From assembly GCA_030652805.1 (NCBI GenBank), contig JAUSPT010000049.1, positions 1-13,665 on the forward strand: a stretch of DNA of 13,665 bases, read 5' to 3'. The stretch comes from a bacterium (GTDB lineage Bacteria > JAHJDO01). Position 1 is the stretch's first letter, and each line of letters opens with the position of its first letter. Below the pieces are notes generated by a model that saw only the letters and a list, made by a program, of their open reading frames with translations, was not told the origin of the DNA and made no database searches. This document shows, one piece after another, positions 1-12,529 of the stretch. The position numbers were made by a program, and so were the translations under genes.

Positions 1-1
1 T

Positions 2-892
2 TTAAAAAGCACCTATTTTATCTGCTTCCTGATGAATCTTTTCAAGTGTTGCTGGAACAAAATTTAATCCATATTTTTTTGCTGTTTCACGGGCACTATC
101 TATTATGTATCCCATGAGCTGTGTTCGCACATCATTTTTATCCAAATAATCAGTTGTATTATGAGTGGCAGCTACTACTGTTTTTATAGGTTGTTTTTTC
201 TCAAGCATAGTCTGCACGTAAGTTCTAATTAATCTTGAATGGACTCCACGCAAAGAATACATATCTGGATTTAATGTTATCCGAGATGAAAACATTCCTG
301 GCAAAAGTGCAGTAACCGGAATTTTATATAAATCAAGATTTCCACATATAAGCCTACTTTCTGAACTTGCATGATGTGCATATGGAAAAGCGCCTCGCCA
401 ATCTCTTCCAACACTACGGTCATATCCCCCCGCATATGTATTCGAAGTTTCTCGATATCCAAGCTCACTCAGAATAGGAAAAGTATGGTCATTTGCTGAA
501 CCATAGCCAGGTTTAAAAACTGTGCTTTCCATCCCCAAAGCATCTTCCCAATCCTGTTTTGCTAATTTCAATATCTCTTTTTGTTTCTTATATTCATATT
601 GTCCAAGATGTTTTCTATATTTCAAATCCCGAAAACTATCACAATGAAATTGCAATCCTAATTCAAACCCCTCCTTTGCAAGTTCAATAAATATTTTCCT
701 GTGTTTCTTTGCTGTAGCTGGTGTAGAGTAAAATCCTCCTATTGCTTTTTTTCTCTTTAATACTTCTGCCATACCTAAAATTGCTTTTTCACTGATACTC
801 CATGATGGCGCACCATCATTCATCCACGATTCTGTTCCTACCCTTTCACAATCCATTGTAAAAATAAAATAAAGATTTTTTTCTATACTCAT
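2..892 (-). CDS. NodB-like polysaccharide deacetylase family protein
   Basis: Complete 296-residue protein without a signal peptide, so probably cytoplasmic. It has the layout of a divergent NodB-homology (carbohydrate esterase 4-like) fold. Strand 1 carries TMDCE (residues 12-16, D14 as candidate base), then H83 with a nearby HLG histidine (H95), FKPGYGSAND (126-135, equivalent to the RxPY/G motif), and a late THN (243-245) that could supply the second catalytic histidine. The canonical TFDD is TMDCE here, so the usual metal Asp is Cys. The standard HxxxH is also not preserved, so metal use is uncertain. A GGGAG SD site (about 904-908) precedes the ATG. It is the last visible gene of the minus-strand operon, downstream of the secreted glycosidase, which suggests it de-N- or de-O-acetylates released sugars or oligosaccharides. 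That role is inferred; the fold call is fairly secure. Confidence 0.72.
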   Translation of the reverse strand: MSIEKNLYFIFTMDCERVGTESWMNDGAPSWSISEKAILGMAEVLKRKKAIGGFYSTPATAKKHRKIFIELAKEGFELGLQFHCDSFRDLKYRKHLGQYEYKKQKEILKLAKQDWEDALGMESTVFKPGYGSANDHTFPILSELGYRETSNTYAGGYDRSVGRDWRGAFPYAHHASSESRLICGNLDLYKIPVTALLPGMFSSRITLNPDMYSLRGVHSRLIRTYVQTMLEKKQPIKTVVAATHNTTDYLDKNDVRTQLMGYIIDSARETAKKYGLNFVPATLEKIHQEADKIGAF

Positions 893-916
893 AATACCAA
901 TTTCTCCCTTATTTGG

Positions 917-1078
917 TTAATACACCTCGATTTCATAAACCGTCGTATGTACCTGCTACCGGACATTATTATTAATAGGATTTTTAGCAGGATTTGAGTT
1001 TATGCCCCAACTTTTGTGTCCATCTCCTGAAAGCAAACCAGTTTTCCTCCTTTTTGGATTTTGGTTTTACAGTTGTCA
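917..1078 (-). pseudogene. Possible decayed 3' end of a gene, in frame with the glycosidase
   Basis: This 183-bp gap holds no normal gene. In the same frame as the upstream glycosidase, past its TGA stop (1076-1078), come a TAA at 1067-1069, 36 open codons (959-1066), a TAG at 956-958, then 12 codons ending in a TAA at 917-919. The last residues read VHTTVYEIEVY. They resemble the glycosidase's own end, YYRVYKIIEVE, and the YEIEVY-like ends of beta-sandwich domains such as F5/8 type C. This may be the scar of a deleted tandem copy or of a former longer C-terminus. A chance match cannot be excluded over so short a stretch. Confidence 0.3.
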
Positions 1079-4000
1079 TTCCACTTCAATAATTTTATAT
1101 ACTCTGTAATATACATCTACAGATTCATAGGTAGGTCTATGGACAAGGATCGCACTATCTTGGTCATATAGAAGCGCTGGTTTCATCCAAAGTTTAATTC
1201 GGTATGTTTTGTTAGGGCTTACTGAAAGTGGACTAGCAAATTGCCATCGAAACCATTTAGCTGACATCTTCTCAACTATTGTTGATTCCCTTTCGATACT
1301 ACTACCGATAATCTGTCCATTATCTATGTCTTCAATTTCTATTATAGTCTTCCCAACGCGCATTTTACTATATAGACTGCTTATTGCTAGTTCTATACCG
1401 GTCAATATACTCATGTCCGGGTCTGTTGTAAAATTTTGAGTCCTTACTAAAACTGGTTCTGCTGCATCTCTACTAATCATTTTATATCTCCACTGTTCAT
1501 TATTCAACTCAGCGGGTGGTTCTGGTTCTAATGCCGGACCAATTATTTCATTGTATATATTATCTACCGTAAAATTATAAACAGGGGAGATACCGAAAAT
1601 ATTACCAGCAATGTCTTCCGCATAAACTCTCCAATACCAAAGAGAGCCAAGTCCAAGTGTAACTGGCTGCTCTATATTGTATTCAGTCGGGATAACCCCA
1701 TACTCACTTAGCCCTATTTTAACGGTATTTACGTCTGTATTTTCAAAATCCGGATCGGATGAATATTGCACACGATATAAACGGGCATTTTGTATCCCAG
1801 ACCACTTCAAATCTATTGAAGTAAGTTTTTCAACATACCCATTAAAATCTGCGCTTTCAATTCTTGCTAACCCATAAATCCCCTGGTCTGGATCATCTTT
1901 AGTATAAACTGCGAATCTCAGATCATGTGAATATTCTCCAATTTCTCCTGCCGTATCAGCATAAACTATATTATTTTCCATTGAACCGTCAACGCCGGTC
2001 ATAATTACCATTCGGGGGTCATCTTCTCCGGGTGTTGTTACTTCAAAATAATATTTTTTATTTGGCTCTATTAAATCACAATATATTGGCCAATAACGCC
2101 ATTTATATTGGCGGTCATTTTGAAACCCTTTGATGCTTGCCTGAGCAAGTTGTATTTCTTTTTTAATGCTGTCATAAATAGTAATAGTGGGAGATGTTAC
2201 TATTGATGAGTAGTAGGTCGCACAGTTTAAAGCTATGCCATAAATACAGGTGGCATTATCTCCTGTTGTAAACGTCTGTCCAATTGGCTTATTTCTATAT
2301 TGTGTCGCTATACCATGACCACTTGGATTTGCTTGATAGCTGATCACAGAGGTCGAATTATCAACATAATAGGTCTTAAAATGAAGACAAGCAGAATAAG
2401 CTTGCATGTCTCCGTTATAATCAGAATAATATGCATTTCCGCCTGAATATGAATGCACCCAGCTCATCTTAACAAGCACCCTATGATCTGGCTGCCCTGG
2501 TGTAGTTAATTCTAGATAGTAGGTAGTATTTGGAGTTAAACCATCATAATGCAGATTCCATTTCCTCCAGTGAAAGTTTCTATCACCAAACCCTTCAATG
2601 CTTGCCTGCGCCAAAAGAACGTTTTTTTGCGGACTGTCATATAAGCTTACTGTGGGGTTATCCGCGATAGCGCCATAGTAACTAGCGCATAAAAATTCAA
2701 CACCTAATATGTTATCAACTTTCGATCCGGTAGTAAAGGTTTGTCCAATTGGTTGATCATAATAATTAATCACTACTCCACTGCTATTATGATGAGGCCA
2801 ATCTAAATATTGATCTATCTCTGAATCTTTAATTGTATAGATTCTAAAGCAAATATCATCACTATACGCGCCCATACCTCCGGCATAATCTGTGTAATAT
2901 ATATCTCCTCCCTGATAGGTATCAGGACTTAAATCTCTTTTAATGGACATTTGAGGACCACTATCTCCAGGAATAGTAATTTCCATATAATACTGCGTCT
3001 CCGGCGTCAACCCTTCACATTGTATATCCCATCTACGCCATTTATATACCTGATCGCCTGAAAAACCAGGTATCGATGCATGGGCAAGTAAAATACTTTT
3101 TGCAGGACTATCATAAATAGAAACAGTAGGAGAAGTAACTGAAGACATATAATACGCATTCCTGCATAGGAGTTCGATACCGCTTATATTAGTCACACCT
3201 GGTCCAGTTTTAAATGTTTGCCCGAGAGGAATCCCCAGATAGGTTACATGCATGTCTGCTGGCTCAGCAGGATTATCCATGAATTGATCTATCATTTCTT
3301 TAAGTTCATACGGTGCAACGTAAAATGAATAAATTTCACTCTCGGCTAATGTACTCCCGGTTTCAAGATGAGTTGCTTTAACCTGCCAATAAAGAGTAGA
3401 ATTCACAGGATAGTCATCCAATATAACTTCTGTATCAGTTACATTCAAAATCTGTGTATTGCCAACAGGAAAGTTCGGGTCTTGCGACCACTTAATTTCA
3501 TATCCTGCATCCCGTAACTCTAACCATTTCAAAGTAATCTTTCCATTATCAGGTCTTACTTTTTGTTCATTAGTCGGGGTAACCAAAGGAAGCCTTATGT
3601 ATTTCAGGAAATAATCATCATTATTAAACTCTGAAAATGCCTCATACTCATTTAAGCCCAAAGGTTCATACACATCAGTTATATCATCAGGTACAAGATA
3701 AACACCCCTGGTTTCATCCCATTCTTCGGTTAAGCGGTCATCTACTTTTATATACCTCATCAGGCCAAATCCTACGAAATCTCTATAAGTCAAAAAAGCT
3801 GCCCATTTTATTGCTGGATAATCTTTTAACGTCTTTTTATAATGAAGAATCATATCTGCCTGCTGCTCCCATCCTATTTTTTCTTCTGCCAGGGCAATAG
3901 GTTTACCAGGAAATTCGTTTACAAAATTCAAATACGCCGCTCGAATATGTGAATCACTGAGGTATTCAGCCCCATCATATGAACCCCCATCCCAGCCGAC

Positions 4001-4693
4001 AGTATCAACATATTTTTCACCGGGATAACATCTTTTTAGAAAATCAAATGGCATATAGATAGCTCCAGCCCATAGCCAGTCCACGTAGATATTCGCCCCT
4101 TCAGTCTCAAATATATTCCATATGTGACGCCATGATTCTGCAAATAATTCCGGGGCAGGATTATTTACTGAAAGATCATATTCTCCTTGTTCGTTATATC
4201 TTGTTGGAGCTCCTGTAAACTCCTTGATATAAGCGAGCTGTATAGGAATCTTCCAATCTTTAATAGCTTGAGCAAACATAATAATTTCATTATCTTTATT
4301 ACCGGCTATGGTATCTCGAAAAGCTTCAATATGACTCATTTCTAATGTGACGGTAGTCTTGTACCAATGAGGGTAATATGACAGAGATGTGAAATTTCCA
4401 TTCTTATAAAAATTTATCACAATGTCTCTAAACCAGGCTATCCTTTCGGGATACACTTCTTTCATGGCATAGCTGTCAACAAGAGCCGTATGCGGCAGAT
4501 TGGGATACTCGGCTCTTTCTTCGTCTAAAAAATTGCCTCTCGTCCCCATTAAGCATCCTCTTTCTGATACCTTCGGTAAGAGTCTGAATTTAATTGGTCC
4601 CGGCGACAGTTCTTCTGCAAAAATAGACAAGCTCATTATAACTAAAAGATTAAATAAACTGGCAAATAAAATTTTACCTCGAAGAGTTCTCAT
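1076..4693 (-). CDS. Secreted multidomain GH26-like glycoside hydrolase with Fn3-like and repeat modules
   Basis: A 1205-residue exported protein. Residues 1-26 form a Sec signal peptide (basic start, hydrophobic core, likely cleavage after IFA). Residues about 50-330 look like a GH26/clan-A TIM barrel: LAYIKEFTG (153-161) at the acid/base position (E158), WRHIWNIFETEGANIYVDW (188-206), YVDTVGWDGG (228-237), and KPIALAEEKIG (264-274) with E270 as candidate nucleophile. GH26 enzymes cut beta-mannans or related beta-glycans; the substrate here is unknown. The usual His before the acid/base Glu is Lys. Residues about 370-460 and 935-1045 are Fn3-like (TLYWQVKA, SLWYWRVYAED). Three copies of a ~150-residue module lie at 468-621, 626-776 and 784-931, with a distant fourth at 1084-1200. 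There is no membrane anchor or recognised sorting tail. A strong SD (GGAAGGAG) precedes the ATG, 41 bp after the isomerase gene. The alternative is a catalytically altered glycan-binding protein. Confidence 0.68.
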   Translation of the reverse strand: MRTLRGKILFASLFNLLVIMSLSIFAEELSPGPIKFRLLPKVSERGCLMGTRGNFLDEERAEYPNLPHTALVDSYAMKEVYPERIAWFRDIVINFYKNGNFTSLSYYPHWYKTTVTLEMSHIEAFRDTIAGNKDNEIIMFAQAIKDWKIPIQLAYIKEFTGAPTRYNEQGEYDLSVNNPAPELFAESWRHIWNIFETEGANIYVDWLWAGAIYMPFDFLKRCYPGEKYVDTVGWDGGSYDGAEYLSDSHIRAAYLNFVNEFPGKPIALAEEKIGWEQQADMILHYKKTLKDYPAIKWAAFLTYRDFVGFGLMRYIKVDDRLTEEWDETRGVYLVPDDITDVYEPLGLNEYEAFSEFNNDDYFLKYIRLPLVTPTNEQKVRPDNGKITLKWLELRDAGYEIKWSQDPNFPVGNTQILNVTDTEVILDDYPVNSTLYWQVKATHLETGSTLAESEIYSFYVAPYELKEMIDQFMDNPAEPADMHVTYLGIPLGQTFKTGPGVTNISGIELLCRNAYYMSSVTSPTVSIYDSPAKSILLAHASIPGFSGDQVYKWRRWDIQCEGLTPETQYYMEITIPGDSGPQMSIKRDLSPDTYQGGDIYYTDYAGGMGAYSDDICFRIYTIKDSEIDQYLDWPHHNSSGVVINYYDQPIGQTFTTGSKVDNILGVEFLCASYYGAIADNPTVSLYDSPQKNVLLAQASIEGFGDRNFHWRKWNLHYDGLTPNTTYYLELTTPGQPDHRVLVKMSWVHSYSGGNAYYSDYNGDMQAYSACLHFKTYYVDNSTSVISYQANPSGHGIATQYRNKPIGQTFTTGDNATCIYGIALNCATYYSSIVTSPTITIYDSIKKEIQLAQASIKGFQNDRQYKWRYWPIYCDLIEPNKKYYFEVTTPGEDDPRMVIMTGVDGSMENNIVYADTAGEIGEYSHDLRFAVYTKDDPDQGIYGLARIESADFNGYVEKLTSIDLKWSGIQNARLYRVQYSSDPDFENTDVNTVKIGLSEYGVIPTEYNIEQPVTLGLGSLWYWRVYAEDIAGNIFGISPVYNFTVDNIYNEIIGPALEPEPPAELNNEQWRYKMISRDAAEPVLVRTQNFTTDPDMSILTGIELAISSLYSKMRVGKTIIEIEDIDNGQIIGSSIERESTIVEKMSAKWFRWQFASPLSVSPNKTYRIKLWMKPALLYDQDSAILVHRPTYESVDVYYRVYKIIEVE
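1901..3292 (-). repeat. Three tandem copies of a ~150-residue protein module within the glycosidase
   Basis: The copies are coded at 3292-2831, 2818-2366 and 2344-1901. Each has the order GQTF(T/K)TG, I-x-G-(I/V), YY, PT(V/I)(S/T)(I/L)YDS, LA(Q/H)ASI-GF, a WR-W motif, a (L/I)xPxxxYYxE(I/L/V)TxPG strand, Y-D at 'YYTDYAGGMGAYS', and a final F-x-x-Y. This is a regular beta-rich pattern with conserved aromatics, as expected of a carbohydrate-binding or wall-binding beta-sandwich. A diverged fourth copy (NFTT, GIEL, KWFRWQF, SPNKTYRIKLW) is coded at about 1094-1444, after the second Fn3-like domain. I do not recognise it as a named CBM family. Confidence 0.85.
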
Positions 4694-4734
4694 GATTATT
4701 TCTCCTTCCTTTTTTTCTTATCGTTTGTGACAAT

Positions 4735-5550
4735 TTACACATTACATAGTAGTTTTTTAAGTGACTTAGCCGCACGTGTAAAGTTTAATGGTCCAGTAAT
4801 CTCACCCTTCTTTTCTCCTAAATGTGGCTCAAGGGAAAGAAATCCATCAAATTTGCGTTTGTTTAAATCGAGTAGAATGTGTTTGAACCCTGCATCACCT
4901 TCACCAGCAACAACAAATTTTTCTTCACCAAGTTTAATATCCTTTATATGAATATACCCAATATAGCCAACAACAGCATTAAACACTTCGGGATAAGGAC
5001 ACTTTTGAAAAAAGTAAACATAGTTACCGGGGTCAAACAATATCCTCAAATTAGGCGAGTTTATTGTAGTCATTATATCAAGCATTTCCTCTAGAGTGGA
5101 ACCATACAGATCTCTCCCCTCATTTTCTAATGATAAGATTAATCCATTTTTTTCTGCCAACTCAGTTTCTATTTTTAACCTTTTTATTACTTCATCTCTA
5201 TATCTACTATGTTCTTTGAGTTCTGCTATATAATAACCAAATATTCTGATATATTTGGTCTCAAAGTACTTAGCCAAAAACAATATTCGTCTGAATTGTT
5301 CCAAATGTAACTCAAAATCATCAGTAATTTTTGCCTTACCTATGGATGATGCAATGGCTGAAACGCTAAATCCTCTTTTATTCAATAGGTTTTTTGTAGT
5401 CTCTGCTTCAGCATTGGACAGTTTTAATAAATTCTTGTTATCTATTCCCCTGCGTAATTCGATATATTTTATTCCTTCAGCTTCTAACAAATCTAATTGG
5501 TCACCAAAAACTGTTGAAATTTCATCCCCAAGACCACTTATTCTAAACAT
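4735..5550 (-). CDS. Sugar phosphate isomerase/epimerase family protein (xylose isomerase-like TIM barrel)
   Basis: A 271-residue cytoplasmic TIM barrel of the AP-endonuclease-2/xylose-isomerase-like superfamily. The metal-site pattern is present: E142 in LSLENEG, D173 in FDPGN, H201 in HIKD, E217 in AGEGD and E241 in SLEPH. Family members isomerise or epimerise keto-sugars, inositols or sugar phosphates with a divalent metal; the substrate cannot be read from sequence. The frame is open to an ATG at 5592, but that start would overlap the upstream gene by 34 bp. The ATG at 5550 gives the usual short N-terminus (MFRISGLGDEIS), lies 8 bp after the upstream stop, and has AGGAG 11 bp before it, so I chose it. 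It is the second gene of the operon, probably coupled to the amidohydrolase, and likely processes a sugar released by the glycosidase. Confidence 0.82.
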   Translation of the reverse strand: MFRISGLGDEISTVFGDQLDLLEAEGIKYIELRRGIDNKNLLKLSNAEAETTKNLLNKRGFSVSAIASSIGKAKITDDFELHLEQFRRILFLAKYFETKYIRIFGYYIAELKEHSRYRDEVIKRLKIETELAEKNGLILSLENEGRDLYGSTLEEMLDIMTTINSPNLRILFDPGNYVYFFQKCPYPEVFNAVVGYIGYIHIKDIKLGEEKFVVAGEGDAGFKHILLDLNKRKFDGFLSLEPHLGEKKGEITGPLNFTRAAKSLKKLLCNV

Positions 5551-5558
5551 AATACCTG

Positions 5559-6398
5559 TTACTCCTGTTTGGATAAATTTATGTTTTTCCAATTAAACCC
5601 AGATTCGGATATAATCCGTTCAGCATTTAAACTCATTATTTTATGCCCTATCTCTTGGTCTCTCATTTTTGCCTCAAAATAAGATTTCCAGAATAGAGCT
5701 TTTTTAATGGGTCCATCCCCACGAACATCTGAACCAAAAAGTATTTTATCAGGACCAACTATCTTTATGACTTCTTTTATTTTATCCGGAGAATCTCTTT
5801 CAACTATTGAACAGGAAGTATCAAGATAAACATTTGGATGTCCTTTTGCAAAGTACACAGCAAAATCGTATGAATGTTTACCTCCCATGTGAGCAGTAAT
5901 AATAACAAGTTTAGGAAACATTTTTGCCACAAGATCCAATGTTATTATTAACATGTTCTTACTTGCCATTCTCTCAGGACCAATTTGCATCTGTTCAGGA
6001 ACCCAATACGGTGACCCGCCAACATGAAAAAGTATCGGCATTTTGGATTTCTCTGCTTTTTCATAAAAAGGAAAACATCTTTCATCATCATAGGCAAAGG
6101 GTGGGAAAATAGCTTTAAGTCCAGCAAAACCTTGTTTATGAAAATAGTCAACAATATCTGGTTTCTTTGTAAAGTCTAGATATGCAAAAGGCACAAAAAA
6201 CCCTTTATATGTTTTCGCAAGATGTAATATCTGTTGATCTTGGTTGCCTTTTAATCCTGCAAATGTATCTCCTGTGGACAATAACCATGTTCTTTTAATA
6301 ACACCCGAATTAACTAAAACACTTGGGTCAAGCAAAACTGCTTTCACACCCGGTTTATTGGTGGGGAAAAAGAAATGGTTATGAGCATCAACTATCAT
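5559..6398 (-). CDS. Amidohydrolase-2 family metal-dependent hydrolase
   Basis: A 279-residue TIM-barrel hydrolase of the amidohydrolase superfamily. It shows DAHNHFF (HxH, H6/H8) on strand 1, FHVGG (H125), TAHMGG (H170) and FGSDVRG (D224), the full metal/catalytic set of the amidohydrolase-2 (ACMSD/LigW-like) group. Members hydrolyse C-O or C-N bonds (lactonases, amidases) or decarboxylate ring acids. Beside a sugar isomerase and a glycosidase, a sugar lactonase is an attractive guess, but the sequence does not prove it. No signal peptide, so cytoplasmic. It is the first gene of the minus-strand operon, with a very strong SD (AAGGAGG) close to the ATG and a short leader that carries the palindromic operator. 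Confidence 0.83.
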   Translation of the reverse strand: MIVDAHNHFFFPTNKPGVKAVLLDPSVLVNSGVIKRTWLLSTGDTFAGLKGNQDQQILHLAKTYKGFFVPFAYLDFTKKPDIVDYFHKQGFAGLKAIFPPFAYDDERCFPFYEKAEKSKMPILFHVGGSPYWVPEQMQIGPERMASKNMLIITLDLVAKMFPKLVIITAHMGGKHSYDFAVYFAKGHPNVYLDTSCSIVERDSPDKIKEVIKIVGPDKILFGSDVRGDGPIKKALFWKSYFEAKMRDQEIGHKIMSLNAERIISESGFNWKNINLSKQE

Positions 6399-6420
6399 TT
6401 TAATACCTCCTTAAATTGAG

Positions 6421-6442
6421 TTACTTAAAGCGCTTTAAGTAA
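6421..6442 (-). promoter_or_regulatory. LacI/GalR-type operator, perfect 22-bp palindrome
   Basis: Every base of this 22-bp site pairs with its mirror; the inner 18 bases are ACTTAAAGCGCTTTAAGT, with a central CG. That symmetry and the AAAGCGCTTT core fit LacI/GalR-family operators. The site starts directly after the -10 box of the minus-strand promoter and would cover the start of transcription, the classic position for steric repression. It lies 22 bp upstream of the amidohydrolase ATG. The repressor gene is not in the window. Confidence 0.85.
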
Positions 6443-6471
6443 ATTAAAACAGATAATATATTACTTGTCAA
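6443..6471 (-). promoter_or_regulatory. Sigma70-type promoter of the glycan-utilisation operon
   Basis: On the minus strand, TTGACA (6471-6466, perfect -35) and TTTAAT (6448-6443, 5 of 6 matches to the -10) are separated by exactly 17 bp. The predicted start, about 6436, falls inside the adjoining palindrome. It would drive the amidohydrolase, isomerase, glycosidase and deacetylase genes. Confidence 0.82.
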
Positions 6472-9273: not shown

Positions 9274-10356
9274 CTAACGCGTTGCCTTCAGCGACTTGTT
9301 CGCCAGTCGTTCTGGTTCCAGATGCCGGCAGAGGAAGTCAATACCCTCGTCCGACATATCCAGTTCGTGCCCCCCGTCATGTTCTTTATAGCAATATCTC
9401 TCCATGATACCCAGCCGTTTGTAGATGTTCTTAAGTTTTCTGGCTTCCGGCCGTGCACGTCGAACGTTGAACAGGTCGTCTTTCTTGCCGACCTCAATAT
9501 ACAAAGGGCGTGGGCATACAAGGGCTCCGACTTCGGAGTCCATAAAGTGATTTGCTGCATCGAACCATACCCAGTCGACGAAGTCGTACACCTTGCGGTT
9601 GTTGAAGAAGCAGGAAGATACGGCAGTCTTGATCCTCGTGTCTAGTGCGGCAGCAAATAGAGTGTAAAAGCCACCATAAGATAATCCGATCATGCCGATA
9701 CGTTCAGAATCAATATCTTTATGTGTTACGAAATAGTCCAGTGATCTAAAAATTCGATATAGGTCAAGGGCCGCAAGAGACCCGCCGATCTGTTTTAACC
9801 GCCGATCAATAGTATTTTTCTCATACTCGGGCCCAAATCTCTTGGAATCCCAGAGAAGGAGTTGCGGAGCAAATACAGCAACACCCCTTCTGAGGACACG
9901 TCGTGTCATATCGTTGTAGTTAGAAGAACCGAAGAATCCAGAACATAATTCGGGTGTCCCACCGCCGCCGTGTTGAGAGACAACCAAAGGAAATGGACCT
10001 TTGCCATGTGGACGAAAGAAAAGTCCGTAAGTATTCACGCCGGGGAGGGTCTCTATCAGGACACGTGAAATTCGGCCAAGGGAATCCTCGGCAACGTTCT
10101 GGTCTGATGCCAAGGGCACATCTGTTTTCCACCCATCAGTCAACGGCCACCCCAACATTTTTCTCAGTCTTTCTCGGTACCTGGCGACTGATTGCTCGTA
10201 GGAGTCGACAGATGAGAGTTTCGGTTTGAAGTACCTTTTGCGGCGACGGTCTGCTTTCTGCTGCTCCTTGCGAAGAAGAGTCTGTACCTCCTCAAGCATA
10301 GACTTGCGAAAGTCGTTACCGGCCTCAGGAGGTTCACTGTATAGACCCACTGTCAT
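9274..10356 (-). CDS. Alpha/beta-hydrolase (dienelactone hydrolase / acetyl-xylan-esterase-like), probably transferred
   Basis: A 360-residue protein with an alpha/beta-hydrolase core. It has an oxyanion-region HGGGG (129-133), the nucleophile elbow GLSYGG (S226), the acid in GKKDDLF (D293 or D294) and the base in DGGHELD (H330). A long helical N-terminus (about 16-75, with RYRERLRKMLGWPL) precedes the core, as in bacterial acetyl-xylan-esterase-like or Abhydrolase_7-type proteins. No signal peptide is visible. A role removing acyl groups from sugars is possible but unproven. The gene is clearly GC-richer (53-57% in two 60-bp samples) than its AT-rich neighbours. It has almost no SD before the ATG (AGAAAGAAAAAAA), stands alone between two plus-strand genes, has its own terminator, and carries an 11-bp inverted repeat at its ends. 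The C-terminal ANKSLKATR tail looks added on. Confidence 0.8.
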   Translation of the reverse strand: MTVGLYSEPPEAGNDFRKSMLEEVQTLLRKEQQKADRRRKRYFKPKLSSVDSYEQSVARYRERLRKMLGWPLTDGWKTDVPLASDQNVAEDSLGRISRVLIETLPGVNTYGLFFRPHGKGPFPLVVSQHGGGGTPELCSGFFGSSNYNDMTRRVLRRGVAVFAPQLLLWDSKRFGPEYEKNTIDRRLKQIGGSLAALDLYRIFRSLDYFVTHKDIDSERIGMIGLSYGGFYTLFAAALDTRIKTAVSSCFFNNRKVYDFVDWVWFDAANHFMDSEVGALVCPRPLYIEVGKKDDLFNVRRARPEARKLKNIYKRLGIMERYCYKEHDGGHELDMSDEGIDFLCRHLEPERLANKSLKATR

Positions 10357-11143: not shown

Positions 11144-12529
11144 CTATCCAAGGCACACTGTTTCATTCTTTTCCGGTATCATGCTTTCAACATTAAGAGA
11201 AACCAGTCTTTCTTTCAACTTTTCAGATTGCTCAGGTTCGCCGTGAACAATGAACACCTTCTTGAGAGAATCTCTGGTTTCATTAACATATTGTACCAGA
11301 TAATCACTGTCTGCATGCGCGCTAAAGGAATCAACAACAACAACCTCTGCCTTTAGTTCATACGGTCTTCCAAAAATGTTGACAGTTGGCCTGTCATGTT
11401 CAACAATCCTTCTTCCGAGAGTATTTTGGGGCATGTATCCTACAATAACAATGGTATTATATGGATTTTCTATATTGTTTTTTAGATGGTGAAGAATTCT
11501 TCCGTGTTCACATGTGCCGGATGCAGATATAATAACCATAGGGCCTCTTTTATTATGTAATTGCTTTGATTGTTCAACATCCTCTATATATGTTATGTTC
11601 TCACTGGCAAGAGGGTCCATGTCCTGGATTTCCTTGCTAAAGTAATCCCTGTTATTCTCAAAAACCTTTGTTACTTTCACAGCGAGCGGACTGTCCACAT
11701 ATATTGGTATCTCTTTTATCTTTCTTTCTCTCAAAAGCCGCGACAGGAAATATATGACCTCCTGAGTTCTTTCCAGAGCAAATGACGGGACAATAATCTT
11801 TCCGCCGCGAGCTACGGTCTTATTCACAACTTCCATGAGCTTCTTCTCTGTTTCTTCTATAGGAGAATGTTTGCGGCCTCCATACGTGCTTTCAATTATA
11901 AGATAATCTATTTTTTTCGGTATTTCAGGATTTCCAACATACGGCAGGTTCGGACGTCCAAGATCTACAGCATAAGCGATACGTATTGTTTTGCCATTAG
12001 CAGAAATGTCAACTGTCGGTATAGAAGAGCCCAGGATATGACCTGCATCAAAGAATGTAAGCTCCATATCCTCTGTCACTCTCTGTTTTTTGTGATAATC
12101 AAGAGCGTAAAGATACCTCAAAGAATTTTCAGCATCATATCTTGTGTAAAGCGCTTCTCTTGGTGGGCGTCCTCTTCGCAGATTTACTTTATTCACATAT
12201 TTTATATCTTCTTCCTGAATATGACCGCTATCCGGCAGCATATACTGGCAGAGCTCCATTGTGGAAGGAGTCAAATACGCCTTTTTTCTGAACCCTTTAT
12301 TTACAAGTGTTGGAAAATTTCCGCAGTGGTCGATGTGGGCATGCGATATTATACAACAATCCAGATCCGATGGATTAATGGGAAACGCGGAATTTACAGT
12401 ATAATACTCATCCCTGTGTCCGTGAAAAAGGCCGCAGTCTATGAGAACTGCAGATTTATCGGTAGTCGCCAAATGCATGGAACCGCTTACTGTTCCAACA
12501 CCACCGCAAAATTTAAATTTTATTGCCAT
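11144..12529 (-). CDS. Metallo-beta-lactamase/beta-CASP family ribonuclease (CPSF73-like)
   Basis: A 461-residue beta-CASP nuclease, the bacterial relative of CPSF73/Ysh1 and of Thermus TTHA0252 (RNA-cleaving, two zinc ions). It has motif 2 SHAHIDHCG (H63, H65, D67, H68), motif 3 DAGHILGSS (H164), motif 4 AYAVDLGR (D189), the beta-CASP insert with PSFALERTQEV and YVDSPLAVKV, then ISASGTCEHGR, GYMPQNTLGRR, SFSAHADSD (H405) and IVHGEP (H429). The whole active site is present. Motif 4 reads AVD where SGD is usual, but the Asp is kept. Likely role: endo- or exonucleolytic RNA processing or decay in the cytoplasm. It is the last gene of a minus-strand cluster; its ATG lies inside the end of the SprT-like gene (10-bp overlap), with a weak AGGT upstream, so translational coupling is likely. 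Confidence 0.95.
   Translation of the reverse strand: MAIKFKFCGGVGTVSGSMHLATTDKSAVLIDCGLFHGHRDEYYTVNSAFPINPSDLDCCIISHAHIDHCGNFPTLVNKGFRKKAYLTPSTMELCQYMLPDSGHIQEEDIKYVNKVNLRRGRPPREALYTRYDAENSLRYLYALDYHKKQRVTEDMELTFFDAGHILGSSIPTVDISANGKTIRIAYAVDLGRPNLPYVGNPEIPKKIDYLIIESTYGGRKHSPIEETEKKLMEVVNKTVARGGKIIVPSFALERTQEVIYFLSRLLRERKIKEIPIYVDSPLAVKVTKVFENNRDYFSKEIQDMDPLASENITYIEDVEQSKQLHNKRGPMVIISASGTCEHGRILHHLKNNIENPYNTIVIVGYMPQNTLGRRIVEHDRPTVNIFGRPYELKAEVVVVDSFSAHADSDYLVQYVNETRDSLKKVFIVHGEPEQSEKLKERLVSLNVESMIPEKNETVCLG

Follow-up and report, generated by a model that had tools for sequence, protein, structure and literature searches.

Does the four-gene set that closes a small bacterial contig form an inducible operon for carbohydrate catabolism, and does it represent a conserved but undescribed system for glycan use? 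The window, that is the whole stretch of DNA analyzed, is a complete contig (C49) of 13,665 bp from a 2.0-Mb genome in 102 contigs. The phylum of the source genome is represented by five genomes in the searched set, all from one genus. An earlier note had proposed that four same-strand genes, separated by short gaps, follow one strong promoter under LacI-type control. The features relevant to this proposal are as follows.

6443 to 6471, minus strand: promoter, read from the minus-strand sequence, with a -35 box TTGACA (6471-6466), a 17-nt spacer and a -10 box TTTAAT (6448-6443).
6421 to 6442, no strand assigned: predicted LacI-type operator TTACTTAAAGCGCTTTAAGTAA, a perfect 22-bp palindrome with a central CG, found by palindrome search.
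5559 to 6398, minus strand: cytosolic TIM-barrel hydrolase of 279 aa, family Amidohydro_2 (PF04909; Pfam E-value 8e-21).
4735 to 5550, minus strand: sugar isomerase/epimerase of 271 aa from the ATG at 5550, family AP_endonuc_2 (PF01261; Pfam E-value 7e-30).
1076 to 4693, minus strand: secreted GH26-like multidomain protein of 1205 aa, from the ORF call, Pfam and repeat analysis, with the signal peptide recognized by eye.
984 to 1079, minus strand: basic ORF of 31 aa, MTTVKPKSKKEENWFAFRRWTQKLGHKLKSC, whose ATG overlaps the stop codon of the secreted protein gene (ATGA).
2 to 892, minus strand: cytosolic protein of 296 aa of the NodB-like polysaccharide-deacetylase family (Pfam PF01522), whose stop codon lies at the contig end.
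1 to 121, no strand assigned: stretch identical to positions 6472-6592 of contig C67, from comparison of the two contigs.

The promoter upstream from the amidohydrolase gene matches 11 of 12 consensus positions. It is missed by an automatic promoter scan because the scanner demands an A at the second position of the -10 box. The palindrome abuts the -10 box on its downstream side, with its center 33 nt upstream from the amidohydrolase ATG, and is not expected by chance (as good a palindrome was found in 0 of 200 shuffles). In a survey of the LacI family that covered 1303 motifs, 1251 took the form of an even palindrome 16-22 nt long and a central CG was present in 1173 (PMC4052901); both the form and the position of the palindrome match such typical sites, supporting the predicted LacI-type control. 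The palindrome is the sole site of its kind in the 2.0-Mb genome with three mismatches allowed. A wider regulon was considered from other AAAGCGCTTT cores and rejected: four fall within the coding regions of unrelated genes and a fifth, about 110 bp upstream from a porin-like gene, has no extended palindrome. Since the remaining cores are thus intragenic or devoid of an extended palindrome, no regulon was inferred.

The gene order behind the promoter is amidohydrolase, isomerase, secreted protein and NodB-like protein, with gaps of 8, 41 and 183 nt and purine-rich ribosome-binding sites upstream from the genes. The arrangement of four same-strand genes behind one strong promoter was thus borne out by the gene calls, the promoter and the palindrome, whereas the description of the gaps as short holds for the first three genes and is less apt for the fourth. 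The isomerase most probably starts at the ATG at 5550, a TTG at 5592 being a less likely alternative. The 31-aa ORF may be nothing real, and no relative of it was found in the loci of its own genome that were searched. Rfam gave no match.

The position of the NodB-like gene bears on the first alternative to be weighed, according to which the functional operon comprises only the first three genes, the NodB-like gene having joined later, with separate expression and with recombination with paralogues on contig C67. Contig C49 terminates at the stop codon of this gene, inside the 121-nt repeat shared with C67, which likely caused the assembly break. The matching stretch of C67 is the site of a NodB-like paralogue. 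Identity between the two genes is mosaic (79-96% in the first 360 nt, 60-68% in the middle and 91-98% at the 3' end), and the last 24 codons contain zero silent differences. The mosaic and the identical final 121 nt reflect either recent recombination or an assembly artefact; the identity could have arisen by gene conversion, or C49 could have been extended by reads of the other copy. The 183-nt gap, the mosaic ending in identity and the location of the C67 paralogue, 2 nt behind a different secreted enzyme, all speak for a late arrival. Against it, the search of the gap for a minus-strand intrinsic terminator, or for RNA structure exceeding that of shuffled sequences (z -0.09), found neither; a promoter-like sequence at 920-891 is a weak match (9 of 12), such matches being not above chance; and on both C49 and C67 a NodB-like gene comes immediately behind the gene of a secreted glycan enzyme. 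We regard the three-gene operon as a possible reading that deserves tentative consideration.

The NodB-like protein itself scores 30.7 bits against PF01522 (cut-off 23.1) and displays no signal peptide by eye. In the alignment of the family, the MDCE motif, H83, H173 and H244 are invariant and THN is also kept. The canonical CE4 His-x3-His metal motif is missing, the first His being Gln81, and distant relatives have HxH as the motif. Since the canonical motif is missing, deacetylation can be considered plausible only. A search of the PDB with the deacetylase profile returned insignificant matches only, and one distant relative (locus L047) lies close to two Amidohydro_2 genes. The earlier suggestion that a deacetylase acts on the released sugars gained no support in view of the lack of a signal peptide, the 183-nt gap and the missing His-x3-His motif.

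Two other genes of the contig deserve mention. The gene at 11144-12529 (minus strand) encodes a metallo-beta-lactamase/beta-CASP protein, probably an RNA-processing nuclease; its best models are Cas14 of type VII CRISPR (366.7 bits, cut-off 800) and archaeal aCPSF1 (282 bits), both scores being far under the cut-off. The alpha/beta-hydrolase gene at 9274-10356 (minus strand) has a GC content of 49.6% versus 38% for the contig and was possibly imported.

Assignment of the two cytosolic enzymes to sugar catabolism relied on their families and on the neighborhoods of their relatives, in which genes lacking a Pfam match or record annotation were named by eye. The amidohydrolase scores 75.5 bits against PF04909 (cut-off 26.4), with no match in NCBIfam and only weak matches to solved amidohydrolases; our guess is a reaction of the sugar-lactonase type. 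Its relatives lie between the sugar-binding protein and the permeases of ABC systems (L053; Deinococcus) and adjoining secreted proteins or enzymes (L048, L054). In Niallia, a relative is located near two Gfo/Idh genes and an isomerase gene, and one in a congener (L052) has neighbors interpreted as NagB-like, aldolase and RpiB genes. The isomerase scores 105 bits (cut-off 31.1) against PF01261, the xylose-isomerase-like TIM barrel, and its relatives are 35-48% identical. Two of them (L082, L083) are found with LacI, KduI/IolB, Gfo/Idh, a DeoC-type aldolase and an ADP-dependent kinase, and another with mannonate dehydratase and Gfo/Idh; those in Thermomicrobium, L079 and L080 have no sugar-catabolic neighbor. 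Bacterial and haloarchaeal operons for sugar catabolism thus contain relatives of both enzymes. The contexts, which include sugar ABC, Gfo/Idh, IolB and glucuronate genes, support the proposed role of both enzymes in sugar catabolism, with no specific substrate indicated. The clusters at L082 and L083, of the sugar-acid or inositol type, resemble the window by an isomerase 42% identical to its own and by the LacI gene of the cluster. They differ in that the window has no KduI/IolB or Gfo/Idh gene and that no secreted enzyme was seen among their ORFs.

The genome contains three LacI genes, on contigs C43, C67 and C77, none of them linked to the C49 operon. Contig C67 encodes secreted CBM9 proteins, TIM isomerases, a PIG-L deacetylase, Gfo/Idh, two DegT aminotransferases and two NodB-like paralogues, 75% and 52% identical to the NodB-like protein of C49. 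Contig C43 encodes LamG, large secreted and BNR-repeat proteins, and C77 (read by eye) carries Gfo/Idh, isomerase, DegT, UroD-like and CBM9-like genes. The secreted glycan-type proteins of these three loci are of the CBM9, LamG, F5/8 or BNR types, and the C49 operon fits this series as one of several LacI loci of such type in the genome. The C67 cluster (L019) is comparable in that a secreted multidomain protein gene is followed by the NodB-like gene encoding the 75%-identical protein, together with LacI and TIM isomerase genes. In contrast, its CBM9 secreted proteins have no Pfam-recognized GH domain, its isomerases are not close relatives of that of the window, and the window operator is not shared. 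Transposase-like genes are present on both sides of the cluster (L019 1131-2486 and L022 1968-3083), which may therefore be mobile. Recurrent LacI loci (L019, L020, L021) also carry large secreted, BNR-repeat and pseudopilin-like proteins and UroD-like genes, and several of the secreted proteins have no Pfam-recognized catalytic domain.

Envelope glycans are frequent substrates of NodB-like enzymes, and the cluster might instead modify an exopolysaccharide or envelope glycan of its own cell, the GH26-like protein trimming the polymer, the NodB-like protein deacetylating precursors and the TIM-barrel enzymes making precursor sugars. The two DegT aminotransferases and the PIG-L deacetylase of the C67 cluster, which can be biosynthetic, favor this role, as does the location of a GH26-like gene of a Curtobacterium plasmid between a glycosyltransferase gene and a UDP-sugar dehydrogenase gene. 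We nonetheless consider envelope modification unlikely, since the promoter has a predicted LacI-type operator, relatives of the cytosolic enzymes lie in uptake and catabolic operons, and the window encodes no glycosyltransferase, flippase or polymerase.

The secreted protein comprises, in order, a GH26-like domain (about residues 40-345), an FnIII-like domain, three repeats of about 155 aa (463-622, 624-777 and 781-934; 40-46% identical among themselves), a second FnIII-like domain and a C-terminal beta-rich region. The repeats have no convincing Pfam or NCBIfam family match. The match to Pfam GH26 (PF02156) is sub-threshold (18.8 bits versus a gathering score of 20.2; E-value of 0.0011 for the domain alone). 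A bridging match was provided by tblastn: actinobacterial plasmid proteins are 22-23% identical to the secreted protein (E-value 3e-5), and one of them is clearly a GH26 protein related to endoglucanase H/Lic26A (E-value 5e-49). Alignment with GH26 homologues located the two predicted catalytic residues.

4220 to 4222, minus strand: codon of E158, the predicted GH26 acid/base (KE in place of HE).
3884 to 3886, minus strand: codon of E270, the predicted GH26 nucleophile.

Both glutamates and the nearby GH26 motifs (YPG..YVD and KPI..AE) are retained in the alignment, and Lys157 takes the place of the His in the HE motif. In the study of BoMan26B, this His was also absent from the GH26 xylanase branch and from one branch of unknown function (PMC6556568). 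The near-threshold score, the bridging match and the aligned glutamates support the identification of a GH26-like secreted enzyme. With respect to the known family (beta-mannanases, lichenases and beta-1,3-xylanases), the protein has the same catalytic residues and surrounding motifs and bridging homologues near Lic26A; it departs from it by KE for HE and by a long repeat-rich C-terminus outside Pfam families. Judged by its sequence, the domain is unusually divergent.

Further searches returned little. Comparison of the secreted protein with solved structures gave no match; matches to SNRNP200, coronavirus S1 and TdT had weak E-values and were taken as chance. The AlphaFold2 model of the GH26 and FnIII region, from the single sequence without an alignment, had a pLDDT of 33 and was discarded. 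A search for this protein in 384 other genomes, four congeners among them, yielded no more than four short, weak hits, which fall outside the catalytic region, and another in a broken frame. Neither a scan of viral contigs with the repeat domain nor two scans of genome contigs gave a match. That the protein is no glycosidase, its degenerate GH26-fold domain serving as a binding or adhesin module, would fit Lys157, the Pfam score, the lack of a structural match and the repeats that make up most of the protein, but is improbable given the retained glutamates and motifs and the two GH26 branches that likewise lack the His.

The question of an undescribed conserved system was addressed by comparing homologue neighborhoods. 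Neither the four congeners nor 380 other genomes yielded the four-gene set, so that the reading as a conserved new system, which the earlier note had considered possible, is not supported, and the operon is most likely a lineage-specific assembly of known, ordinary parts. LacI-regulated carbohydrate utilization operons (PMC4052901) share with it the even central-CG palindrome at the promoter and the combination of glycan-cleavage and sugar-conversion genes; in contrast, C49, a complete contig, shows no LacI gene or transporter, and its operator is unique in the genome. Polysaccharide utilization loci of the Bacteroidota similarly combine a co-regulated secreted glycosidase with accessory enzymes, but C49 has no SusC/SusD-type genes. 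The earlier note had drawn attention to the lack of a transporter and of SusC/D; none is indeed present, and since C49 is a whole contig that ends at the last visible gene of the operon, the lack of a transporter, regulator or SusC/SusD pair is an uninformative effect of the contig end. It is doubtful that the GH26-like domain represents a branch of new specificity, marked by KE for HE, which together with the atypical NodB-like enzyme would open an undescribed catabolic route for an acylated glycan.

We conclude that the four-gene set of C49 is probably a LacI-type carbohydrate-catabolic operon. As suggested by the promoter and operator, a LacI-family repressor encoded elsewhere would keep the strong promoter shut until a sugar effector arrives. 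Induction would lead to secretion of the GH26-like retaining glycosidase, which would cut a beta-linked polysaccharide, its FnIII-like and repeated beta-rich modules probably binding the substrate or the cell surface. The cleavage products would be imported by a transporter encoded outside C49 and fed to central metabolism by the isomerase/epimerase and the amidohydrolase, for which a lactonase-type step appears most likely. The NodB-like protein, if a true deacetylase, would strip acyl groups from intermediates. Counting against a catabolic operon are the lack of a linked transporter, kinase or regulator, which a contig ending at this point could not show, the occurrence of the operator at a single site in the genome, the gap before the NodB-like gene, the lack of a recurring four-gene neighborhood, the sub-threshold GH26 score, the absence of the HE His and the isomerase relatives found outside any sugar context.

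If ordinary, the set is simply another carbohydrate operon. Its lineage appears to run several LacI-type loci around secreted, poorly recognized glycan proteins, and the divergent GH26 enzyme, whose promoter is clearly of an inducible type, would provide an entry point to its substrate.
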